A DNA stretch of 64,000 nucleotides from Clostridia bacterium (GCA_017411435.1 JAFQQD010000031.1:1-64000), one strand, 5' to 3'. Positions 4,633 to 37,800 are shown, counted from the stretch's first letter. The notes: generated from the sequence alone by a model not told the origin. Translations and numbers: made by a program.

Positions 4633-5460
4633 ATGGAATTATATAATCCTTTGAGAGATTTCAGAATAAATTCAATCAACAGTGCTTTTATCAGAAATGC
4701 TCATGAGAATTTCTGTTTTGACGGGGAAATGCACGATTTCTGGGAGATGATTTACGCAAAGTCGGGCAGTACAACCATATCTGAAGACGACAAAATATAT
4801 GAATTAAGTGCAGGTCATGCTGTTTTTCATAAACCGATGGAATTCCACAGGTTGAAATGTAAAAAAGGACAAAAAGCCGAACTTGTCATAATATCCTTTT
4901 CTGCAGGTGGGGACTTGATCAACCCACTAGGAAATGGTGTCTTCGAGTTAAATCTGTATCTTGAGCAAATGCTTTTTGATGTGTTTAATCAGATTACATC
5001 TTCCTTTGATTGCCGAAATATTCCTGTCAAAGCTTCAACGAAAAACACAATTGACGAAAATCTGTCTCTTTTAAAACTTGAAATACTACTTCTTTCGATC
5101 CTTGCAGAAATTTCGCCAAGCAAAAAGGAATCTTACAGTATCGGTGCTTATAATTACAAAAAAATAATTGAAGTTATGAGTAGTCACATTGATGAAAACC
5201 TATCTGTTGATGAAATTTCATCTCTTTGTTGTCTTAGTTCAAGTAATCTCAAAAAAACTTTTAAGGCATACGCCGGTTGCGGAGTAGCAGAACACTACAA
5301 CAGGCTCCGTATTATCCGAGCAATAGAATATCTTAAATCGGGAATGAGTGTTACAGAAATAAGCAAAAAGATGTCATATTCAAGCACCGGTTATTTTTCC
5401 AATGTATTCAAGCGCGAAACAGGACTCTCCCCGCTTCAGTATAAAACTGAAAAAATGTAA
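4633..5460 (+). CDS. AraC-family transcriptional regulator
   Basis: 275-residue regulator with an N-terminal cupin-like sensor (HDFWEMIYAKSG near residue 36) and a C-terminal AraC domain with two helix-turn-helix units. The second ends in the family signature GYFSNVFKRETGLSPLQYK. GGGAGG lies upstream of the ATG. It is divergent from the nucleotidyltransferase / NahK / GalE operon across about 140 bases and probably activates it in response to a hexosamine or its oligosaccharide. Confidence 0.85.
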   Translation: MELYNPLRDFRINSINSAFIRNAHENFCFDGEMHDFWEMIYAKSGSTTISEDDKIYELSAGHAVFHKPMEFHRLKCKKGQKAELVIISFSAGGDLINPLGNGVFELNLYLEQMLFDVFNQITSSFDCRNIPVKASTKNTIDENLSLLKLEILLLSILAEISPSKKESYSIGAYNYKKIIEVMSSHIDENLSVDEISSLCCLSSSNLKKTFKAYAGCGVAEHYNRLRIIRAIEYLKSGMSVTEISKKMSYSSTGYFSNVFKRETGLSPLQYKTEKM

Positions 5461-5469
5461 TCTAAAGGA

Positions 5470-5580
5470 AACGATTGATAATCTTTTTTAGCAAAGTTGG
5501 TGCGCAGACGGGCACCGTGAGCAATGCGAACGGTCATCGAGCAGGTATGGTGCGAAGCAGCATCTCTCCTCGCCTCCACC
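5470..5580. other. GC-rich intergenic segment of unknown role
   Basis: Between the AraC stop and the next terminator is a stretch richer in G+C than its surroundings, with small hairpins (GGTGC...GCACC and GGTG...CACC). No convincing reading frame or ribosome binding site was found. It resembles an extragenic repeat but has no second copy here. Confidence 0.3.
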
Positions 5581-5583
5581 ATA

Positions 5584-5627
5584 ATAAAAAGGTAAAGCAT
5601 ACCACTTGGTATGCTTTACCTTTTTTG
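5584..5627. terminator. Bidirectional terminator between AraC and D-LDH genes
   Basis: A near-perfect hairpin of AAAGGTAAAGCATACC and its complement, with an A-run on the left and a T-run on the right, sits between the convergent AraC gene and hydroxyacid dehydrogenase gene. Confidence 0.85.
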
Positions 5628-5634
5628 TCACCAG

Positions 5635-5672
5635 CAATTGCACAAAAATTGCCCCGTCCCCAAACTGTGCGG
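5635..5672. repeat. Short extragenic repeat (TTGCACAAAAA...CCCCAAACTGTG)
   Basis: This short sequence matches a longer one at 35776-35826: both start TTGCACAAAAA, contain TGCCCC and end CCCCAAACTGTG, and both abut the stop codon of a minus-strand gene. It is probably a dispersed extragenic repeat. Confidence 0.45.
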
Positions 5673-6707
5673 TTAAAAGCATTTTCCTTTTTTACAGTCG
5701 CAGGTAGTTCCAGCGCGGTAGCAAAGCTCGTTTGGGCATTTACCGTTTTTCGTAAGGTCAATAATGTTTTTAACAGTTGTTTCGGCAATGTTTGAAAGTG
5801 CTTCCTCAGTTAAAAATGCCTGATGCGAGGTCACGATAACATTGGGCATTGAAATAAGCCTTGCAAGTGTATCGTCCTCAACGATATGACCTGAAAAGTC
5901 TTCAAAGAAGAAGTCTGACTCTTCCTCATACACATCAAGGCAAGCGGCGCCTACTCTGCGCGATTTTATAGCATTCAAAAGAGCCTCCGCATCAACAAGC
6001 GCACCACGGGATGTATTTATTATAACTACTCCCTTTTTACATTTTTCAATGCTCTTTTCATCAATTATATGGTCGGTTTCCTCAGTAAGCGGACAGTGAA
6101 GCGAAATGATGTCACTTTCAGCAAAGAGTGTATCAAGTTCAACATAACGGATTGTATCACCGTTATCAAGCCCCTCGGCAGGATATTTGTCATAGGCGAG
6201 TACTTTCATGCCGAAGCCTCGGCAGATGTCGATAAACACGCGTCCGATTCTGCCCGTACCGATTACACCGACTGTTTTTCCGTGAAGGTCAAATCCCGTC
6301 ATACCATTGAGGCTGAAATTGAAATCCTTTGTCCTGATATACGCCTTGTGAATACGCCTGATTGAAGTAAGAAGCATTGCCATAGCATGTTCTGCAACGG
6401 CATAAGGTGAATATGCAGGTACGCGAAGAACATGGATTTTTCCAAAAGCGTATTTCATATCAACATTGTTAAAACCTGCGCAGCGAAGGGCAAGGATTTC
6501 TATCCCCATTTCGCACAGGCGGTCAATCACAACGGAATTTACTGTGTCATTTACAAATGCGCAAACTCCGTCAAACCCGTGTGCAAGTTCTACTGTATCT
6601 TCGTTTAATTTTGTTTCAAAATATTTGAATTTTATTCCGTACTCTTCGCCGTATTTATCAAAAGACGGCCTGTCGTAAGGCTTTGCATCAAAAAAAGCAA
6701 TCTTCAT
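5673..6707 (-). CDS. ldhA: D-lactate dehydrogenase / D-2-hydroxyacid dehydrogenase
   Basis: 344-residue D-isomer-specific 2-hydroxyacid dehydrogenase that probably reduces pyruvate to D-lactate with NADH. It shows the Rossmann loop GVIGTGRIGRVF near residue 148, the catalytic Arg in INTSRGALVD and the catalytic His in TSHQAFLTEEAL near residue 295. The start ATG has GGAG upstream. The C-terminus ends in an odd cysteine/lysine tail, CDCKKGKCF, that could bind a metal. It is a single-gene unit with its own terminator. Confidence 0.85.
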   Translation of the reverse strand: MKIAFFDAKPYDRPSFDKYGEEYGIKFKYFETKLNEDTVELAHGFDGVCAFVNDTVNSVVIDRLCEMGIEILALRCAGFNNVDMKYAFGKIHVLRVPAYSPYAVAEHAMAMLLTSIRRIHKAYIRTKDFNFSLNGMTGFDLHGKTVGVIGTGRIGRVFIDICRGFGMKVLAYDKYPAEGLDNGDTIRYVELDTLFAESDIISLHCPLTEETDHIIDEKSIEKCKKGVVIINTSRGALVDAEALLNAIKSRRVGAACLDVYEEESDFFFEDFSGHIVEDDTLARLISMPNVIVTSHQAFLTEEALSNIAETTVKNIIDLTKNGKCPNELCYRAGTTCDCKKGKCF

Positions 6708-24709: not shown

Positions 24710-26116
24710 TTACATAGGATGAACTTTATTTTCTTTATCTGCAAGTGTCGGGTCAATCTTATACTTCTGTCCCTGACGGTATTCGAAGAACTTTGTAGCA
24801 ACAGGGCCGAAGAGAGCGTAGCTTAAAACATCTTCATCCTGCTCGATATATTCGCTGATTTCACTTCTGAATTTATCAAGTTCAGCTGGAATATCGTCTG
24901 CAGGTCTTCCTGTAATACGCTTTTCATCACCGAGGATTTTCTTTGCAAACTCTTCGCTTACTTCCACAGGTGTTCTGCCGTATTCGCCCTTTATCATTCC
25001 GCGGAATTCCTTGGTAACATTTTTATATCTTTCGCCAAGAACCACATTGAACACCGCCTGAGAACCAACAATCTGGCTGGTAGGTGTTACAAGCGGAGGG
25101 AAGCCGGCATCCTCACGAACACGAGGCACTTCCTTGAGAACTTCCTGGAATTTATCCTCTGCACCGAGCTGCTTGAGCTGAGAAAGAAGATTTGAAAGCA
25201 TACCCCCGGGAACCTGATACTTAAGAGTATTTACATCAACAGCGAGTGCCTTGGGATTAAGAGTGCCGTCTGCAAGATATTTCTCGCGGATAGGTCTGAA
25301 ATAATCTGCGATATCACTTAAAAGGTTAAGGTCATAGCCTGTGTCATAGGGTGTTCCCTGAAGTGCTGCAACGAGAGGCTCGGTTGCAGGCTGGCTTGTA
25401 CCCATAGCAAGAGGCGACATAGCACAGTCAACGATATCTACGCCTGCTTCAATAGCCTTGAGATAAGTCATAGAAGCAATACCGCTTGTGTAATGGGTGT
25501 GAAGCTCAATCGGGATTTTGACTACTTCTTTCATTCCTTTTACAAGGTCATATGCGTTATAAGGAGTAAGAAGGCCTGCCATATCCTTGATACAGATACT
25601 GCTTGCGCCCATATCTTCGAGTTCCTTTGCCATATTGATAAAGGTTTCGTTTGTGTGAACGGGGCTGATTGTGTATGAGATAGCCGCCTGAACATGGCCT
25701 TTTTCCTTGATTGTAGCATTGATTGCGGTCTTAAGGTTACGGATATCATTAAGAGCATCAAAAATTCTGATGATATCGATACCGTTTGCGATTGATTTCT
25801 GTACAAAGTATTCTACAACATCATCTCCGTAGTGACGGTAACCGAGGATGTTCTGTCCGCGGAAAAGCATCTGAAGGGGTGTGTTTTTTGCCTTGTCCTT
25901 GATTTTTCTGAGTCTTTCCCAGGGGTCTTCCTTGAGGAAACGAAGACAGCTGTCAAATGTTGCGCCGCCCCATGCTTCAAGTGCGTTGTAGCCAACTTTA
26001 TCAAGAAGTTCTACTGCATCGAGCATTTCTTCAGTTGTCATACGGGTAGCGATGAGGGACTGATGCGCGTCACGAAGAATTGTTTCGGTAATTTTTACCG
26101 GTCTTTTATTTTCCAT
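24710..26116 (-). CDS. oadA: Oxaloacetate decarboxylase alpha / pyruvate carboxyltransferase subunit
   Basis: 468-residue carboxyltransferase of the OadA/PycB type. Metal and catalytic residues are visible in ETILRDAHQSL (residues 11-21), the carboxylated lysine region CIKDMAGLL (near 176) and the HTH pair in IELHTHYTSG (near 207). It moves carboxyl groups between oxaloacetate/pyruvate and biotin. It lacks the C-terminal biotin domain of full OadA proteins, so it must use the separate biotin carrier of the operon. Last of five genes; AAAGGA precedes the ATG. Confidence 0.9.
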   Translation of the reverse strand: MENKRPVKITETILRDAHQSLIATRMTTEEMLDAVELLDKVGYNALEAWGGATFDSCLRFLKEDPWERLRKIKDKAKNTPLQMLFRGQNILGYRHYGDDVVEYFVQKSIANGIDIIRIFDALNDIRNLKTAINATIKEKGHVQAAISYTISPVHTNETFINMAKELEDMGASSICIKDMAGLLTPYNAYDLVKGMKEVVKIPIELHTHYTSGIASMTYLKAIEAGVDIVDCAMSPLAMGTSQPATEPLVAALQGTPYDTGYDLNLLSDIADYFRPIREKYLADGTLNPKALAVDVNTLKYQVPGGMLSNLLSQLKQLGAEDKFQEVLKEVPRVREDAGFPPLVTPTSQIVGSQAVFNVVLGERYKNVTKEFRGMIKGEYGRTPVEVSEEFAKKILGDEKRITGRPADDIPAELDKFRSEISEYIEQDEDVLSYALFGPVATKFFEYRQGQKYKIDPTLADKENKVHPM

Positions 26117-26150
26117 GATAATTATTTCCTTTCAATAGATTTGATGTGTG

Positions 26151-27386
26151 TTACTTGAATAATGCAAGGAATACGCCAGCGGCTACCGCACTGCCGATAA
26201 CTCCGGCAACATTAGGGCCCATAGCATGCATAAGAAGGAAGTTTGACGGATTTTCCTCCTGACCAACCTTCTGAGACACACGAGCTGCCATGGGAACTGC
26301 GCTTACGCCTGCGCTACCGATAAGAGGATTAATCTTACCGCCTGAAAGTTTGCACATAATTTTACCAAAGAGTACGCCGCCCGCTGTACTTACACTAAAT
26401 GCCACAAGTCCGAGGCAGATGATAAGAATAGTCTTGGGAGTAAGGAATGTGTCTGCAGTAGCAGTAGCGCCAACTGTTACGCCAAGGAATATTGTGATAA
26501 TATTCATAAGTTCATTCTGCGCTGCTTTTGAAATTCTGTCTACAACGCCACTTTCCTTGAAAAGGTTACCCAGCATAAGCATACCTACAAGGGGAGCTGC
26601 ATCGGGGACAAGAAGAACAACTACAAGTGTAACAACGATGGGGAAAATAATCTTTTCCTTCTGTGTTACAGGACGAAGCTGCTCCATTGTAATCATTCGT
26701 TCCTCTTTAGTTGTAAGAGCTCTCATAATCGGGGGCTGAATTACGGGAACAAGCGCCATATAAGAGTATGCCGCAACTGCGATTGCACTTAAAAGTCCCG
26801 GTGCAAGTGTCTTTGTGACATAGATTGCAGTAGGACCATCTGCACCGCCGATGATACCGATTGATGCCGCTTCCTTAAAGATAGTTTCCATTGTACCATC
26901 AGCACCGAACCCGCCTATCTTGAATGCGCCCAGAAGAATTGCACCAAGGAATGTTATAAAAACACCTATCTGTGCCGCTGCGCCGAGAAGAATACTCTTG
27001 GGATTTGAAATAAGCGGTGCAAAGTCTGTCATACAACCGATTCCAAGGAATATAAGCGGAGGATATATACCGAGTTTAACACCCAGGTACAGCAAATCCA
27101 GAAGTCCGCCTTTTTGTAATATCATACCATAATCTATTGTTTTTCCTGTAAAAAATTCAGGATGCATTACATTTCCGAGAGGAAGGTTTGCAAGAAGCAT
27201 ACCGAATGCGATGGGAAGTAGCAAAAGCGGCTCAAACTTTTTAACGATTGCAAGGTACAAAAGAAAGCACGCGATTACAATCATTAAAACTGTCTTCCAC
27301 CAGATAACTCCGTCACCGCTGAACATTTCAGCTATACCGGTATTTCCGAAAAACTGTATAAATCCGGTAGTTAATTTTTCTAACAA
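26151..27386 (-). CDS. Na+-pumping decarboxylase beta subunit (OadB/GcdB/MmdB)
   Basis: 411-residue integral membrane protein with about nine helices. It decarboxylates carboxybiotin and exports Na+. The conserved [15 protein letters not shown] segment near residue 170 holds the essential aspartate of the family. The start codon is TTG, with GGAGTG ten bases upstream. It stands between the biotin carrier and OadA genes. A second, standalone paralogue lies at 39145-40290. Confidence 0.92.
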
Positions 27387-27424
27387 CTTATATCACTCCA
27401 TTTCTCAATTTTATTTTTTCTCAA

Positions 27425-27799
27425 TTAAGAAATGGAAATAAGCACATCGCCTGTGTTAACAGTTGCACCCTTTGATGCAACAACTGTTACTGTACCGCTG
27501 CAGGGAGCAAAGATTTCGTTTTCCATCTTCATAGCTTCAAGAATTACTACTACATCGCCCTCTTTAACTGCCTGTCCGTTTGAAACCTTGATATCAAGCA
27601 CATTACCGGGCATGGGAGCCTTAACGGGTGTACCACCTGCAACGGCCTGGGCCTTGGGTGCAGGAGCAGGAGATGCTGCCTGAGCCTTGGGAGCGGGTGC
27701 TGCTACGGGTGCTGCTACGGGTGCAGAAGCGGTTGCACCTACTTCTTCAACTTCTACCTCATATGAATTACCGTTTACATTTACAATAAATTTTCTCAT
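27425..27799 (-). CDS. Biotin carrier protein of the Na+-pumping decarboxylase
   Basis: 124 residues: a short N-terminal beta segment, an Ala/Pro-rich flexible linker (about residues 24-55), and a biotinyl domain with the biotinylation motif EAMKMEN (Lys near residue 91). It shuttles CO2 between the carboxyltransferases and the membrane beta subunit. AGGAGG precedes the ATG. It is the only biotin carrier in the operon and so must serve both carboxyltransferase subunits. Confidence 0.95.
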   Translation of the reverse strand: MRKFIVNVNGNSYEVEVEEVGATASAPVAAPVAAPAPKAQAASPAPAPKAQAVAGGTPVKAPMPGNVLDIKVSNGQAVKEGDVVVILEAMKMENEIFAPCSGTVTVVASKGATVNTGDVLISIS

Positions 27800-27816
27800 A
27801 TCATTTTCCTCCTAAA

Positions 27817-28176
27817 TTATAATCTGTTTTCAAGAATATCCATTCGGCCTGCCTTATTCCATGCATCGCCAGATACTGTTTTATATGAGCGAACAACAAA
27901 CCCAGATGTGCCCTTGCCCATCGCTGCCGCGATTGCCGCAGTAATTACCGCGATAAGCTCGCTATCGTCTGTTGCCTGCGCCACTGCGGGTGTTTCCTCC
28001 AAAGTAACTTCTTCCTGCTGTTTTACAAGCTGTTTTTGTTCCTTTGGTTTTGATTCTGTACTTAAAAGCGCCATCGCTTTGATAACAAGCATAATAATTA
28101 CAAGAATCATGAACACTACGAGGATACCCATAACAGTATAAGCAAGACCTTCAAGTATAAGCTCGTTTCTGTCCAT
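27817..28176 (-). CDS. Na+-pump decarboxylase gamma/delta subunit (OadG/MmdD-like)
   Basis: 119-residue protein with one N-terminal membrane helix (about residues 10-34), a charged Lys/Gln/Glu-rich middle, and a C-terminal segment. That segment (AVITAAIAAAMG, then GFVVRSYKTV and WNKAGRMDIL) is typical of small decarboxylase subunits, which anchor the biotin and carboxyltransferase parts to the beta subunit. AAGGAGG precedes the ATG. Confidence 0.85.
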   Translation of the reverse strand: MDRNELILEGLAYTVMGILVVFMILVIIMLVIKAMALLSTESKPKEQKQLVKQQEEVTLEETPAVAQATDDSELIAVITAAIAAAMGKGTSGFVVRSYKTVSGDAWNKAGRMDILENRL

Positions 28177-28188
28177 TATAAGTCCTCC

Positions 28189-29667
28189 TTACAGTGACAT
28201 ATTGTCATGCTTTTTGGAAATTGCGCCTGCACGCTTGCTTCTGAGCATTTCAAGGGCTGCAGCTATGCGAGCTCTTGTTTCAGAAGGAATAATTATGTCA
28301 TCAACACATCCAAGTTTTGCTGCATTGTAGATTGATGCTTCTGTTTCGATATATTCTTTTTCAAGCGCTTCACGGCTTTCGCCTGCTTTAAGTCTTTCGC
28401 TATACAAGACTCCAACACCTGCTGCAGGAGGAAGGGGTGCCATTTCAGCCGTAGGATATGCATAAATGAGGTCTGCGCCACCCTGTTTTGAATTAAGAAG
28501 TGTATATGCAGTTCCGTATGCCTTCTTGGTAATGATGTTAATTTTGGGAACAGTTGCTTCAACGAAAGCGTACATAAGCTCTGCACTCTTTCTTGCAAGG
28601 CCCCATGTTTCCTCGTTTGCGCTTGCGCGGAAGCCTTCAACATCAGTGATTGTAACAATAGGTGTGTTGTAGCAGTCACAGAAACGGACAAAACGCTCCA
28701 TCTTCTGTGCAGCAAGGTTTGAAATTTCAGCCTCGTTCGTTGCGATAACGCCAACTGTAGATCCGTTAACGCGGATGAAACCGATTGATGCTTCCTTTGC
28801 GTAATCAGATTGAATTTCAAAGAATGCCTTATCATCAGCAATTTCAGCGATAACAACGCGTGCGTCTGTGATATTTTCAATATCATTTAATATGTCGCAG
28901 GGACGAGAAAGGTCGTCTGCTGTTTCATAGATAAATGCATCAGAAAGATTGTTTGAAGGAATGTATGAAAGAAGAAGCTTTGTGATTTCAATACATCCAA
29001 GGTCATCCTTGCCGATTAAGTGTGCGTTACCGTTTTTGTTAACGCTTCCCTTTGCATCAACTGAGGGTGCCTCACCTTCTGTTGCCTCGATAATGTCAGG
29101 ACCTGTTACGAACATCTTGCCTGTCTTTTCGTTCATAACTACAAAGTCACTCATAGCAGCTGCAATAGCGCTGCCGCCTGCACAGTTACCGAAAACAATG
29201 CTGATATGCGGAACAACACCGCTGATGTTTGCAAATGCGCTGAGAACTCTGCCCATTGCACGCTGAACACGGGGACCGTCAGAAAGGCGAACACCGTTAG
29301 AATCAAGCATACCGATAACGGGCGCACCCATTTTTGCAGCCATATCTACTATTTTATTGATTTTGTTAGCGTACATTTCACCCATAGCACCGCCAAGAAC
29401 TGTTACATCCTGCGAATAGACATAAACAAGTCTTGAGTCAACACTGCCGTAGCCTGTGATAACACCGTCTGCTGCAGTTTCTTCTCCGCGTGCTGAAATG
29501 AATGCACCGATTTCAACAAAACTACCCTCGTCCAAAAGAGCTTCAATTCTCTCTCTTGCAGTCATAGAGCCGTTTTGCTTTTGCTTCTCCAGTTTTTCCT
29601 TTCCGCCGCCAAGAGCAATAGCCTCTTTTCTGGCGATAAGGTCGGATATTTTTTCCATAGAACTCAT
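28189..29667 (-). CDS. mmdA: Methylmalonyl-CoA decarboxylase / acyl-CoA carboxyltransferase subunit
   Basis: 492-residue carboxyltransferase of the MmdA/PccB/12S family. Typical segments are SMTARERIEALLDEGSF near residue 33, VFGNCAGGSAIAAAMSDF (oxyanion region) near 158, and KKAYGTAYTLLNSKQGGAD near 380. It probably moves CO2 from methylmalonyl-CoA to biotin, yielding propionyl-CoA. First gene of the operon; AGGAGG precedes the ATG. Specificity within the acyl-CoA family is inferred from the operon. Confidence 0.88.
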   Translation of the reverse strand: MSSMEKISDLIARKEAIALGGGKEKLEKQKQNGSMTARERIEALLDEGSFVEIGAFISARGEETAADGVITGYGSVDSRLVYVYSQDVTVLGGAMGEMYANKINKIVDMAAKMGAPVIGMLDSNGVRLSDGPRVQRAMGRVLSAFANISGVVPHISIVFGNCAGGSAIAAAMSDFVVMNEKTGKMFVTGPDIIEATEGEAPSVDAKGSVNKNGNAHLIGKDDLGCIEITKLLLSYIPSNNLSDAFIYETADDLSRPCDILNDIENITDARVVIAEIADDKAFFEIQSDYAKEASIGFIRVNGSTVGVIATNEAEISNLAAQKMERFVRFCDCYNTPIVTITDVEGFRASANEETWGLARKSAELMYAFVEATVPKINIITKKAYGTAYTLLNSKQGGADLIYAYPTAEMAPLPPAAGVGVLYSERLKAGESREALEKEYIETEASIYNAAKLGCVDDIIIPSETRARIAAALEMLRSKRAGAISKKHDNMSL

Positions 29668-29779: not shown

Positions 29780-29812
29780 TAAAAATCCCCCAAGGTTTTA
29801 TCCTTGGGGGAT
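29780..29812 (-). terminator. Terminator after the ASRT-family gene
   Basis: AATCCCCCAAGG/CCTTGGGGGATT hairpin followed on the minus strand by TTTTT, four bases past the ASRT-family stop. Confidence 0.85.
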
Positions 29813-29816
29813 TAAC

Positions 29817-30185
29817 TTAGAAACTATATCCCTCTACGCTGTAATATGCCATATTTGTCTGGCGGACATCAAGTCTTCCGAAACAAGCACAAATGGGGGT
29901 ATCACTCTTTACCCATACGGTGTACTGTACTGATTCGCCGAGGGTAAATCCCTTCTCGCCCATAGGCTTATCAAGTCTTATACAGGTAGTTCTCATACCG
30001 TCAAGCTCTACAAAAATATTTTCTTCAGGCTCTCTGTCTTCAAATACAAACACAAGTTCTATCTTTGCCTTTTCTTTGTTAAGGTTAGTAAGCATAAGTG
30101 CCTCGTGTCCTTCAAATTCGGGGTTGTCTCCGTGCGGAGGCAGATATCCGTCACAAAAAACCCAGTTCTTCTTTCCTATTTTCAT
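29817..30185 (-). CDS. ASRT-family protein (sensory rhodopsin transducer-like)
   Basis: 122-residue all-beta protein of the family named after Anabaena sensory rhodopsin transducer (motifs NWVFCDGYLPP near residue 6, GHEALMLTN near 27, VWVKSDTPICACFGRLDVRQ near 90). No rhodopsin is present, and many members in Clostridia lack one. It is the last gene of the AraC / phosphotriesterase-like / creatinase-like operon, 12 bases after the hydrolase. A small-molecule (sugar) binding role is plausible but unproven. Confidence 0.7.
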   Translation of the reverse strand: MKIGKKNWVFCDGYLPPHGDNPEFEGHEALMLTNLNKEKAKIELVFVFEDREPEENIFVELDGMRTTCIRLDKPMGEKGFTLGESVQYTVWVKSDTPICACFGRLDVRQTNMAYYSVEGYSF

Positions 30186-30197
30186 TTTATTTACTCC

Positions 30198-31391
30198 TTA
30201 CTTAAAAATCTTGGGAAGTGCCTTGTCGTTATAAGTGGTCATTCTCTTTGCACCCTTGTCTGTGATAAGGTAGCAGTCTTCAACTCTGAATGAACCCCAC
30301 TCCATACCCTTGAAATATGCGTCAATACAGATTGCCATATTTTCCTGAATAACGCGCTTGTTGTCTACTGAGAATATGGGTGCCTCACATTCAAGCATAC
30401 CTGTACTGTGCAGGCTTCCGTAAGGACAGTAATCTATGTAGCCGTACTTTGTAAGGTATTCTGTATATGCGTTGAGCACAACATCGCAGGGCGTTCCGGG
30501 AATCATTTTTTCTGATGCATAGTTGAGAGCATCATATGCGCACATTACTGCATCCTTTATCTTCTGGGGGATTTCGCCAAGCACAAGAGGGCTACAGATA
30601 ATACCGTTGTAGCCTTCGTAGCAAACACCTGCGGCAAGGTTTATAATTTCGCTTTCCTTAATCTGTCTCAATGTATTTCTGCACATACTGATGTATGAAT
30701 TCTTGGGGCCTGTTGCTACCATCGGTGCAAATGCCTGAACATAGCTTTCAGCACCAAGGCTCATCATTTCCGCTTCAAACATACCTTCGATATGTCTTTC
30801 AGTCATACCAACTTCAATTTTGGGAACAACTGCTTCAAACATTTTTGAAACCATTTCCCAGTTTGTCTTGAGAATTTCAATTTCTGCAGGGCTCTTGATT
30901 ATTCTCTGCTCATAATGAATATCATCAAAGTCAACAATTTCTGCGCCTGCAAACACAGTTTTGAGCTTATTCATAATGATAGACGGGAAAATAAGTCTGC
31001 CGATAAAACCGATTTTCTTTACATTGGGATGTTCATTCTTGATTTGTGTAAAGAGTTCGGCAAAATCAAGCTGTCCTTCAGTATCATACTCAAAACCGCT
31101 TACCTCACCTATTTCGGGAAGAATTGCAATGCGGCTTTCGGGAAGCTGATTCATAATCTGACAATAGTCATATGATGCCTGACCGCTGCACACAACAACT
31201 TCGCCTTCAGCAGGAATTATAATTGCTGAGCTTTCGTTAACGGGCGCAAAGCCACAGTAATAACGAACGATGCCGATTTCGAGAAGGTTTGAAAATCCAA
31301 CGAGAAGATCAACGCCTTCGCGAGCCATAAGTTTTCTCATAGCCTCTACTCTCTGTTTGTATTCTTTTGCTTCAATCTTGGGATAGTTCAT
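30198..31391 (-). CDS. Creatinase/Xaa-Pro peptidase-fold hydrolase lacking metal ligands
   Basis: 397-residue protein with an N-terminal creatinase domain (about 1-130) and a C-terminal pita-bread domain. In M24 metallopeptidases the first aspartate pair lies in a D-x-G...SD motif; here the segment reads NLAAGVCYEGYNGIICSP with no such aspartates. SLHSTGMLECEAP and FRVEDCYLIT are retained. This favours a metal-independent, creatinase-like C-N hydrolase over a dipeptidase. The substrate is unknown but probably shared with the neighbouring phosphotriesterase-like enzyme. AAAGGAG precedes the ATG. Confidence 0.75.
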   Translation of the reverse strand: MNYPKIEAKEYKQRVEAMRKLMAREGVDLLVGFSNLLEIGIVRYYCGFAPVNESSAIIIPAEGEVVVCSGQASYDYCQIMNQLPESRIAILPEIGEVSGFEYDTEGQLDFAELFTQIKNEHPNVKKIGFIGRLIFPSIIMNKLKTVFAGAEIVDFDDIHYEQRIIKSPAEIEILKTNWEMVSKMFEAVVPKIEVGMTERHIEGMFEAEMMSLGAESYVQAFAPMVATGPKNSYISMCRNTLRQIKESEIINLAAGVCYEGYNGIICSPLVLGEIPQKIKDAVMCAYDALNYASEKMIPGTPCDVVLNAYTEYLTKYGYIDYCPYGSLHSTGMLECEAPIFSVDNKRVIQENMAICIDAYFKGMEWGSFRVEDCYLITDKGAKRMTTYNDKALPKIFK

Positions 31392-31404
31392 AATTTTTCT
31401 CCTT

Positions 31405-32412
31405 TCATATTAAAAAGTTTTTAACATTGTCTGTAAGTATTGACATATATGTTCTTTCGTCTATTCCATTCTGCTCTGCCATAAATTTAACTGTGCGAAG
31501 TATATGAGCATAGCCTGTGCCACCGTATTTCTTCCACATTGTTTTAAGGCAAATGTCGTTACACACAAGTATTTTGTCCTTGTAGCCTTCATCGATAAGA
31601 TTCTTTAAGAGTTTTATTCTCTCAAGGTCATATGCAAAGCGTCTTTCTTCGGATACATAAAATTCCTTTCCGAAGTTATCGAACTCCACATATACCCCTC
31701 TGTCCAGAAGTGCTTTTATGTAATCAGGTCTGAGCCATACATCCACATGGTCGATACAGATTTTTTCAGGCTTCATACCCTCGGAGGTAAGAATATCTGT
31801 AACCTCAAATCCGTTCTGTGTGTACAAATCTGTATGTACATGCACTGCCTTTCCGGTCTCGGCACCTACCATACCGGCAGCGTGCAGAACTTTCTTTTCG
31901 TCATCTGTCATTACGGCGCTTGTTCCTATTTCCCCTATGATTCCTGCTTTTATATCGGTATCGCCTATTCCACGGGTTATATCACGGTACATTTCCTCTG
32001 CCAGAGTTTCTACGGAAGCATCTTTTACATATGGGAAGTGTGCCTTGTGATAGTAATGTCCGCAACCAAGAATAATATTGACGCCTGTGCGCTTTGACAC
32101 TTCTTTGAGTTTTTTGGGGTCTCTGCCTATTTCATCGAGTGTGCAGTCAACTATTGTATTACCGCCCCACTGCTTAAAATATTCGATTTCCTTTACTGCG
32201 TCATCCACATTGTCCAAAAGTGCGTTGTCTAAAATTGCATAAGGGTCGGAAAATACCTCTGCACGGTTGTCGCCACTTATACTGTCGTGAAAACATTTCG
32301 GGGAATCTGCCGTTTCGTCCACGCACATCCGCATATCTATAAATATATGCTCGTGAGATGATGTAACGCCGAGCTTATCCTCATGAATTTCGCCTAAAAC
32401 TGTTGTAATCAC
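31405..32412 (-). CDS. Phosphotriesterase-family metal hydrolase
   Basis: 335-residue amidohydrolase-superfamily TIM barrel of the phosphotriesterase-homology type. Metal ligands are visible: HEH in VTSSHEHIFID (residues 16-26), the bridging Glu in IIGEIGTS (as in E. coli PHP, in place of the carboxylated lysine), His in AVHVHTDLY, His in CIDHVD and Asp in VCNDICLKT. Such enzymes are usually lactonases or amidohydrolases rather than phosphotriesterases. The start is GTG, overlapping the AraC stop by four bases (GTGA), so the two are translationally coupled. Confidence 0.82.
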   Translation of the reverse strand: MITTVLGEIHEDKLGVTSSHEHIFIDMRMCVDETADSPKCFHDSISGDNRAEVFSDPYAILDNALLDNVDDAVKEIEYFKQWGGNTIVDCTLDEIGRDPKKLKEVSKRTGVNIILGCGHYYHKAHFPYVKDASVETLAEEMYRDITRGIGDTDIKAGIIGEIGTSAVMTDDEKKVLHAAGMVGAETGKAVHVHTDLYTQNGFEVTDILTSEGMKPEKICIDHVDVWLRPDYIKALLDRGVYVEFDNFGKEFYVSEERRFAYDLERIKLLKNLIDEGYKDKILVCNDICLKTMWKKYGGTGYAHILRTVKFMAEQNGIDERTYMSILTDNVKNFLI

Positions 32413-33287
32413 ATTAATCCCCCCCTCTCATCTGAATTCTTTCTGTACTCTATCGGGGTACAACCCGTCTGCTTCTTGAAAAGCGAGTTAAAATACTTAA
32501 CATCCTGAAATCCAAGATGCCTTGATATACCTGTTGCAGTATGTCCTGTTTCTCTTAAAAGTCTTTGCGCCTCTTCAATTTTCAGCCTGTTAAAACACGA
32601 AATCAATGTTTCGCCAGTCTGATTCTTGAATGTACGGCAAAGGAATGAACGGGAATAATTGAACCGCGCACAAAGGTCGTTAAGTGATAGCTTGTTGCAA
32701 AGATTTTCTTTGAAATAATTTATTACCGTCTGAGCGAGAACTGCATCAAAATCCTCATCGGGAAGAAATATCACTCTGGAATCCTTGTCAACGGAGAGTT
32801 TCCGAAGAAGGCATATAAGAAGATATTCAAGCAAGATAATAATTGCCTGCTGACCTCCGAAGCTCGGGGTTGCGAGTGCCTTCAGGTGTTCATTCTCATC
32901 TATACGGAAGGTTTTTGAGCATTCGTCTATGATTGAAGTCATAATGCCTGTTATAGTTGCATCGGAATCAAATTTCATATCTCCCATAGCCTTTAGTGAC
33001 TGAGAGAAACTCTGAAAGCAGATTACGAATACAGTATTTTTATTATTTTCACTATGGTACGAATGTTTTTTATTGGGGGAAATCAATGCAATTTCATTTT
33101 CACAAAGTCGCAAAGAATTATCCCCTGTTTCAAGAGTTATACTGCCTTTTTGAACATAACAAAGTTCCCAGAAATCGTGGCTTTCCTCATAATTTTTGTA
33201 CTTGCCATCAAAGTCAGGATATTCCAGGGCTATAAGTTCCTTTATATCTATTACATTAAAAATTCTGTGTCGGATGTAGTTTCTCAT
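32409..33287 (-). CDS. AraC-family regulator of the hydrolase operon
   Basis: 292-residue regulator with an N-terminal cupin sensor (SHDFWELCYVQKGSITLETG, near residue 35) and a C-terminal double helix-turn-helix ending in YFNSLFKKQTGCTPIEYRK. It is first in the operon, overlapping the hydrolase gene, so it controls its own transcription unit. The ribosome binding site is weak. The cysteine-rich central region has no assigned function. Confidence 0.85.
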   Translation of the reverse strand: MRNYIRHRIFNVIDIKELIALEYPDFDGKYKNYEESHDFWELCYVQKGSITLETGDNSLRLCENEIALISPNKKHSYHSENNKNTVFVICFQSFSQSLKAMGDMKFDSDATITGIMTSIIDECSKTFRIDENEHLKALATPSFGGQQAIIILLEYLLICLLRKLSVDKDSRVIFLPDEDFDAVLAQTVINYFKENLCNKLSLNDLCARFNYSRSFLCRTFKNQTGETLISCFNRLKIEEAQRLLRETGHTATGISRHLGFQDVKYFNSLFKKQTGCTPIEYRKNSDERGGLM

Positions 33288-33431
33288 ACTGTTGCACTCT
33301 CATTTCCTATACACATTTTCTGATTTTATTATAAAAAAATTTTATAATAATGTAAACCTATAATATTACACTCGGTATACTAAAATATTCCACGAAAATT
33401 AAATTGAAGAATATTTTTATATCTTCTTTTA

Positions 33432-34125: not shown

Positions 34126-34917
34126 TTAATATTGTCCTCTTTTCCTGTTAATCAACACAACAATTATAATCGAGATAAGAACTATGGCAATCAGCAATGC
34201 TACAATTCCCATAATGCGAATAAGCATCAAATCATCAGTTTTTTCGCTCTCACCTTCGGTTGCTTTCTCTTCTTCGGAAATTTTCTTATCCTCTTTTTCA
34301 AGATATTTTACCGCCGGGTTTTCTTCGTTTGCTGTTTCCTGTTTTTCTACTGTTGTTTCTTGTTTTTTGACACTCGGCTGTTTTGTAGTGGTGTATTTAA
34401 GATATACCCATCCTTCGTAATTGCCGTAGTAGGTATAACCCCAATTTCCCGATTTTCTGGTTATGTGTATTTCGGTATCGTTGGGAATCCATCCTGACAT
34501 TACCTTGGCATAGCTTGAAGCGGGACCTGAGCGCAGATTAAGTCCGCCATCATATGAATTTACATACACATAATAGTCCGTATAGGTATATTCATACTCA
34601 GGTTTTGTTTCAGCTTTGGTTTCAGGCAGATTTGTAGTAGTATACTTCAGACTTACCCAGCCTTCGTAACCGCTGTAATAGGTTTTTCCCCAATTTCCCG
34701 ATGTGGCTGTTATGTGTATCTGTGTATTGTTGGGAATCCATCCTGACATTACTTTTGCGTAGCTTGAAGATGGGCCACTGCGCAGATTAAGTCCGCCATC
34801 ATATGAATTTACATATACATAGTAATCCGCATACGCTGTTTCATACGCGTACGATGTCAGGGTCAGTGCAAAAACCGCAACCAGAATCAAGCATATTATA
34901 CCAATAGTTTTTCTCAT
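34126..34917 (-). CDS. Membrane-anchored protein with two SH3b domains
   Basis: 263 residues: signal peptide or N-terminal helix (about 5-24), two bacterial SH3 domains (about 30-95 and 112-178) that are nearly identical (both contain YVNSYDGGLNLRSGP and MSGWIPN), a Lys/Glu-rich spacer, and a C-terminal membrane helix (about 230-257) followed by NRKRGQY. It probably binds peptidoglycan or peptides at the cell surface. The two repeats are also alike at DNA level (34386-34570 and 34630-34815), a recent internal duplication. Confidence 0.82.
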   Translation of the reverse strand: MRKTIGIICLILVAVFALTLTSYAYETAYADYYVYVNSYDGGLNLRSGPSSSYAKVMSGWIPNNTQIHITATSGNWGKTYYSGYEGWVSLKYTTTNLPETKAETKPEYEYTYTDYYVYVNSYDGGLNLRSGPASSYAKVMSGWIPNDTEIHITRKSGNWGYTYYGNYEGWVYLKYTTTKQPSVKKQETTVEKQETANEENPAVKYLEKEDKKISEEEKATEGESEKTDDLMLIRIMGIVALLIAIVLISIIIVVLINRKRGQY

Positions 34918-37080: not shown

Positions 37081-37800
37081 TTAATATGCCTCTGTCATAG
37101 CATAATCTGCCAATTCCACAGCCTCTGCAAAATTCGGATAGTCGAAGATTTCTCCGTTTTCGTCAATGTATCTTACAATTTCGTTATTTCTGAAATAAAG
37201 CCTGTGCTCCTGCTTCCCTTTGAAAATGAACGCAAATACCATCTGTCCACTTCCGGCATCATAATAGTACTGTCGTGACATATCGTTTTGATACGCTCCG
37301 CTTGGGAATTCTTTTTTTACACAGTTTATGCCGTCATACCAGGTTATTATTCCCTCGGCGTTTTTTTCAGTAGAATAGGAATCTATATTTGAATTTATAT
37401 GATTATACAGCGGGCGTACATAAGTTTTTATGTATTCCTCGACTCCTGCACCATCCGCTTTTCCTGTTGGATATTCTTTCTTTCCGTACTGCTGTTCTTT
37501 GTCAATAAGATTCACTTCTTCAGTAGGAAAAGTTTCCTTTTTCTCGGGTTTTTTATCAGAAAGAAATTCCGAAAGCACATATCCTGTAACACCGTTACAA
37601 GATACCTTTGAATATCCGTTTTCCGCTTCTCCTTCAAACCGCACTTTATCGCCGCACATTAACTTCCCGATAGCTTCAGACTCAACTGACGGTTCCCGGC
37701 GAAGCTGTGCGCTTTCGCAATTTGCCACATATTTAACACCGGCACATCCGCAAAGACATATTGCTACTGCCAAAGTCAGGCATATTAAAAGGTTTTTCAT
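37081..37800 (-). CDS. Lipoprotein with SH3b domain
   Basis: 239-residue lipoprotein. The signal peptide ends in a lipobox-like LCGC around residue 19. A bacterial SH3 domain follows (about 25-85, with SAQLRREPSVESEAIGKL and GVTGYVLSEFL), then a charged linker and a C-terminal domain of about 130 residues of unknown function (YYDAGSGQMVFAFIFKGKQ, IVRYIDENGE). Predicted to be anchored to the outer face of the membrane. AAAGGAG precedes the ATG. Confidence 0.75.
   Translation of the reverse strand: MKNLLICLTLAVAICLCGCAGVKYVANCESAQLRREPSVESEAIGKLMCGDKVRFEGEAENGYSKVSCNGVTGYVLSEFLSDKKPEKKETFPTEEVNLIDKEQQYGKKEYPTGKADGAGVEEYIKTYVRPLYNHINSNIDSYSTEKNAEGIITWYDGINCVKKEFPSGAYQNDMSRQYYYDAGSGQMVFAFIFKGKQEHRLYFRNNEIVRYIDENGEIFDYPNFAEAVELADYAMTEAY

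Follow-up and report, generated by a model that had tools for sequence, protein, structure and literature searches.

Four tightly packed genes lie on the minus strand between positions 29,817 and 33,287 of the window, i.e., the whole analyzed stretch of 64,000 nucleotides from Clostridia bacterium (GCA_017411435.1 JAFQQD010000031.1:1-64000). In the order of transcription, they encode an AraC-family regulator, a metallohydrolase of the phosphotriesterase (PTE) family, a protein with the 'pita-bread' fold of the M24/creatinase families and a solo ASRT domain (Table 1). The PTE gene overlaps araC by 4 bp, and the remaining intergenic gaps measure 13 and 12 bp. The family assignments of the original prediction were all confirmed by Pfam far above the cut-offs: HTH_18 with 73 bits and AraC_binding with 32 bits for the regulator, PTE with 221 bits, Peptidase_M24 with 104.7 bits and Creatinase_N with 33 bits, and PF07100 with 90 bits (cut-off of 25; positions 1–118 of 119) for the ASRT protein.

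Table 1. Features of the operon in the window and of recurring gene families at related loci (L numbers).
Feature	Position	Strand	Basis
AraC-family regulator, 292 aa, N-terminal cupin and two HTH motifs	32409..33287	-	Pfam
PTE-family (PHP/PTER-like) metallohydrolase, 335 aa, GTG start	31405..32412	-	Pfam; alignment with 3rhg, 3k2g, 9efa
M24 'pita-bread' protein, 397 aa, predicted remodelled site	30198..31391	-	Pfam; alignments; fold match
Solo ASRT (ASRAH) domain, 122 aa	29817..30185	-	Pfam; PDB relatives; clade tree
Predicted promoter TTTACA-17-TATAAT (11/12)	33328..33356	-	40 bp upstream of araC start
Predicted proximal AraC-type half-site GTGTAATATTATAG, abutting the -35 box	33358..33371	-	direct repeat; conserved block
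Predicted distal half-site GTGGAATATTTTAG, 22 bp from proximal	33380..33393	-	direct repeat; conserved AATATTTTGGTAT block
Predicted intrinsic terminator, 12-bp stem then T-rich tail, directly after asrt	29784..29813	-	sequence
~260-aa gene	L086:6163-6966, L107:6186-6965, L091:5343-6125, L096:6107-6952, L099:2096-2875, L098:9608-10390, L090:5238-6029
~640–690-aa gene	L095:4178-6115, L097:4555-6480, L088:9744-11807, L105:9350-11347

Since the operon further downstream has a promoter-like site of its own (29748-29720), the transcription unit is predicted to consist of the araC, PTE, M24 and ASRT genes only. The decarboxylase genes of that downstream operon were considered as further members and excluded on account of this site and of the terminator. 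The downstream operon itself (24710-29667) resembles a sodium-pump decarboxylase set with carboxyltransferase, biotin carrier and membrane subunit. Close to the four-gene unit, at 34126-34917 and 37081-37800, lie genes for two predicted exported proteins that contain SH3-like repeats.

The regulator carries the two-HTH domain and the N-terminal cupin of its family. Upstream of its gene, two 14-bp direct repeats were found 22 bp apart, the inner copy directly adjoining the -35 box. The predicted sites are thus arranged as in AraC-type activation, where tandem half-sites about 21 bp apart adjoin the -35 box. A near-identical -35/-10 pair, mostly with 17-bp spacing, was kept in 14 of 15 araC upstream regions (the window plus 14 loci), and beside this promoter a block reading AATATTTTGGTAT...GAAnATTTTAGGTTTACA was conserved upstream of araC in related loci. 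Besides the window's copy, the genome had no exact match to the distal motif, and approximate matches to the half-site were no commoner than in a reversed control. A wider AraC regulon was rejected on these grounds. Given the conserved promoter and half-sites and the single match, we infer with good reason that AraC locally activates its own operon through the predicted half-sites, in line with the self-regulated unit proposed originally.

A constant M24–ASRT pair with exchangeable partners

Scanning about 85,000 species genomes yielded 25 loci with the M24 subfamily of the window (72–90% identity), all in metagenome-assembled genomes of Oscillospiraceae/Clostridia, the RGIG ones coming from ruminant gut sites. 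Gene families at these loci were counted by six-frame profile search. All four families occurred together in 14 of these 25 other loci, and the co-occurrence that neighbourhood analysis was meant to probe was therefore borne out. ASRT directly followed M24 in 19 of 25 loci and was absent from the other 6, while PTE was present in 17 and missing from 8 (e.g., L083–L085, L087 and L104). M24 stood alone at L101, L102 and L106, the last being a short contig. The order AraC-PTE-M24-ASRT on one strand was seen at 10 of the 25 loci; in 4 of these, a TIM-barrel gene of 259 aa separates araC from PTE. Only two of seven genomes of the window's own genus contain the M24 subfamily. Since M24 proteins from other families and orders are still 85–87% identical to that of the window, i.e., identity stays flat across taxa, horizontal spread of the subfamily is suggested.

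Further genes recur around the sister operons. One of about 260 aa, lacking a Pfam match and often situated between araC and PTE, is not part of the window operon; it was predicted to form a TIM barrel (pLDDT of 85), for which a fold search returned only generic TIM-barrel matches. Another family, of about 640–690 aa, lies downstream of several sister operons; the members tested had no Pfam match, and their sequences suggest a glycosidase-like TIM barrel. L105 has a divergent operon without ASRT, in which PTE and M24 are separated by two tandem Amidohydro_2-family genes (4911-6523). At L091 (10699-13687), a second module, M81-M24-ASRT, adjoins an operon of the window type, its M24 gene being split by a frameshift; the M24 gene of L072 is likewise split.

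The M24–ASRT association extends beyond this subfamily. Of 391 genomes from the class, 67 gave matches to the ASRT profile, and a six-frame recount placed 31 M24–ASRT loci in the class sample. At 26 of these 31 loci the pair was accompanied by a metallohydrolase, which belonged to the creatininase family in 15 cases, to M81/MlrC in 7 and to PTE in 4. Among the remaining five, a polysaccharide deacetylase adjoins at L045 and an M19 dipeptidase at L047; overall, peptidase families M81, M19 and M20 were found next to M24–ASRT pairs. Since creatininase, M81 and PTE alternate beside M24–ASRT, the PTE enzyme is one of several exchangeable metallohydrolases and the M24–ASRT pair is the constant core, an arrangement with a swappable hydrolase that had been overlooked in the original prediction. 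The exchangeable families are mostly amide-bond hydrolases. Outside the class, one of eight inspected loci with M24 relatives had ASRT. Shuffling of partners was also observed: L053 has an ASRT resembling that of the window (60% identical) beside an M24 protein of the M81 type, and L066/L092 combine a window-type M24 protein (85%) with a distant ASRT (39%).

Sugar-related genes were encountered near sister loci, namely DUF4432, GH3, ROK kinase, Gfo/Idh/MocA oxidoreductase, GH67N/DUF4838, glucosamine-isomerase-like and fucose-isomerase-like genes. Among the neighbours examined, no urease or sarcosine genes were recognized.

Metal sites of the two enzymes and the ASRT clades

Besides its profile match, the PTE protein retains the intact HxH/E/H/H/D ligand set of its family, i.e., H20, H22, E161, H193, H222 and D286; six divergent homologues showed no change at any of these positions. 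The glutamate proposed as bridging ligand corresponds to E161 and stands within a predicted complete metal site, as in PHP proteins. The sequence is similar over its full length to 3rhg and 9efa (PTE homology/PTER), and the ligand pattern is common to the PTE homology proteins and PTER, the N-acetyltaurine hydrolase (3rhg, 9efa, EcPHP 1bf6). In contrast to these proteins, the window enzyme has diverged in sequence and is embedded in an AraC-M24-ASRT operon. PTER, the PTE relative of known activity, hydrolyzes N-acetyltaurine, i.e., an amide (PMC11374699).

The M24 protein combines the profile with the pita-bread fold, and Foldseek with its model gave prolidases as best matches (E 5e-25), creatinases being matched as well. 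In the AlphaFold model, pLDDT was 74 overall and below 50 in the pocket segments; thus, the pocket structure prediction called for originally recovered the fold, while being poorest exactly where it would have to settle the metal site. Alignment with prolidase (M24B, Xaa-Pro dipeptidase, P. furiosus 1pv9), which has the same fold and two-domain layout and the same His and C-terminal Glu positions, equates prolidase D209/D220/H284/E313/E327 with A253/I264/H328/D357/E371. The five ligands D, D, H, E, E of M24 metallopeptidases are therefore not complete in the window protein: both Asp are replaced and Glu313 has become Asp. The window M24 subfamily also lacks His at the positions equivalent to prolidase His192 and His291. 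The stretch quoted in the original prediction, NLAAGVCYEGYNGIICSP, is present and contains the replaced Asp positions, and the loss held in two alignments, neither of which restored the ligands. It was also found in 30 of 30 ASRT-linked M24 proteins, a set reaching down to 22% identity with the window protein, in which the metal His, Asp at position 313 and Glu at position 327 are universal. H328, E334, E336, D357, R369 and E371 are invariant across these 30 divergent members.

Creatinase (creatine amidinohydrolase, P. putida, 1chm) shares the pita-bread fold and has likewise lost both Asp ligands. Its residues at the five ligand positions are N, A, H, E, H; therefore, judged from the alignments, the ASRT-linked M24 family has only the Asp loss and the His in common with it. 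At the two later positions, the M24 family has Asp and Glu where creatinase has Glu and His, and no His of the window subfamily aligns with the first active-site His of creatinase. Of the creatinase-like enzyme originally suggested, the fold thus stands and the active site does not, H328, D357 and E371 being kept and the replacement residues of creatinase being absent. By its predicted ligands, the site is neither that of prolidase nor that of creatinase.

The ASRT protein, whose PDB relatives are 2ii7 and 1nc7, keeps W8, H27 and N34, and with them the Trp of strand 1 and the Asn following strand 2. The pocket signature SHEshChhN of PMC2739507, said to be almost absolute across the family, is incomplete: His27 is kept and the Cys is replaced by Met31, while the PF07100 match stands. 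A tree of 64 Clostridia ASRT sequences, leaving out those masked by antisense ORFs (which the six-frame recount takes in), separated two clades with support of 100/100. Clade one (n=33) has the pocket Cys and an M24 neighbour in none of 33 cases; clade two (n=31) has lost the Cys and has a same-strand M24 neighbour in 28 of 31 cases, the first 30 ASRT neighbourhoods having been viewed over about 1.5 kb on each side. In the three exceptional cases, ASRT has PTE as its neighbour instead (L052), M24 is weaker and runs on the other strand (L056), or the locus lies at a contig edge (L074_0). Expressed by neighbour, the pocket position is Cys in 33 of 36 ASRTs without M24 and Met, Ile or Val in all 28 with it. 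Loss of the Cys in the window ASRT thus marks a clade variant of the family. Since the window genome contains only three M24 genes, the proximity of M24 to 28 of 31 clade-two ASRTs indicates a linkage beyond chance.

De Souza, Iyer and Aravind (2009; PMC2739507) proposed a ligand (sugar) binding role for solo ASRT/ASRAH proteins of sugar operons. The solo proteins of that analysis share with the window protein the PF07100 domain, the solo intracellular form, the conserved W/H/N residues and a metabolic operon without rhodopsin. The window clade differs by Met, Ile or Val in place of the pocket Cys, and the partnership of ASRT with M24 and a metallohydrolase is absent from the main text of that paper. 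Two annotated proteobacterial ASRT regions found by plasmid searches (Caballeronia and Sinorhizobium) have other enzymes beside ASRT and no M24. The view of ASRT as a ligand binder was thereby supported, and it had already been published. Also consistent with the original prediction, a search of the genome for rhodopsin genes gave no match, which is a weak negative, since the control genomes gave none either.

Proposed function and competing explanations

Overall, the operon looks like an undescribed way of degrading a sugar-derived compound. That it is a self-regulated catabolic operon for such a compound is the explanation we favour, at somewhat less than an even chance. The cupin domain of AraC would sense the substrate or product, and AraC would then activate the operon, its own gene included, by binding the tandem half-sites that adjoin the -35 box. 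The first hydrolytic cut, in an amide or lactone, would be made by the PTE-type enzyme, which is exchanged for other hydrolases in other versions of the module, and the M24 protein would act on the product, either via a single metal at H328/D357/E371 or without metal. ASRT would bind the sugar-like substrate or product and may control or feed the M24 enzyme by direct contact.

Among candidate substrates, an amide or lactone derived from a sugar fits the context best. Amide chemistry is suggested because the partners belong mostly to amide-bond hydrolase families and PTER is an N-acetyltaurine hydrolase. A sugar origin is suggested because of the published ASRT analysis (PMC2739507) and the sugar-related neighbours in sister loci. 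These neighbours differ between loci, however, and many lie outside the operon; the window operon itself is without transporter, kinase or sugar dehydrogenase. Both points count against the favoured explanation, as do the six loci without ASRT, the eight without PTE, the partner shuffling at L053 and L066/L092 and the weakness of the M24 model at the pocket. In the two-step hydrolysis envisaged originally, an amide or lactone would be the likelier target, the guanidino or N-carbamoyl version having found little support. A more specific proposal, which we regard as possible and somewhat doubtful, is that M24 enzymes of this kind form a new class, with either a single metal held by one His and two carboxylates or no metal, that ASRT serves them as a regulatory or substrate-presenting subunit, and that the pair is a plug-in core for different amide or lactone hydrolases acting on different sugar-derived compounds.

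Instead, the M24 protein could be a non-catalytic scaffold or receptor that forms a metabolite sensor with ASRT, leaving all chemistry to the metallohydrolase. Loss of both Asp ligands in 30 of 30 members, the occurrence of pseudo-enzymes in M24 and the constant partner, a predicted ligand binder, would fit this. The six invariant residues and the uniform change from Glu to Asp, in contrast, look like selection on a working site, and a scaffold or receptor is rather unlikely.

A guanidino, ureido or cyclic imide compound as the target is improbable in comparison. Here, PTE or creatininase would open a ring and M24 would cleave the open form, as in the known route from creatinine via creatine to sarcosine and urea. 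The creatininase-family partner in 15 of 31 M24–ASRT loci recalls the creatininase–creatinase pair, and creatinase likewise lacks both Asp. However, the creatininase family is broad, many prolidases outranked creatinase in both profile and fold searches, the residues at the later ligand positions and at the first active-site His differ as described above, and urease and sarcosine genes were not recognized among the neighbours examined. Peptide processing is judged equally improbable: M24 would be a divergent single-metal Xaa-Pro-type peptidase, with PTE, M81 and M19 enzymes cutting other peptide or N-acyl bonds. The prolidases as best sequence and fold matches and the adjoining peptidase families agree with this, but a binuclear M24 peptidase site requires both of the Asp that are absent here, two prolidase His positions are not kept, and the sugar-related neighbours and ASRT would be left unexplained.

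Each of the protein families was known already, as was the ligand-binding role proposed for ASRT in 2009 (PMC2739507). A search of open-licence papers returned nothing that links ASRT to M24, creatininase or PTE. What appears to be new is an ASRT of the sugar-operon type that belongs to a distinct clade and is linked to a family of M24 proteins with a predicted third type of active site.

The role of ASRT outside cyanobacteria has been a standing question since 2009, and the clade-specific link to one uniformly changed enzyme family gives ASRT a concrete, directly testable partner. Within the M24 family, a third kind of remodelled site would be added to creatinase and the metal-dependent peptidases. 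Should a sugar amide from the diet or the host prove to be the substrate, the operon would mark an unrecognized degradative trait of ruminant-gut Clostridia.
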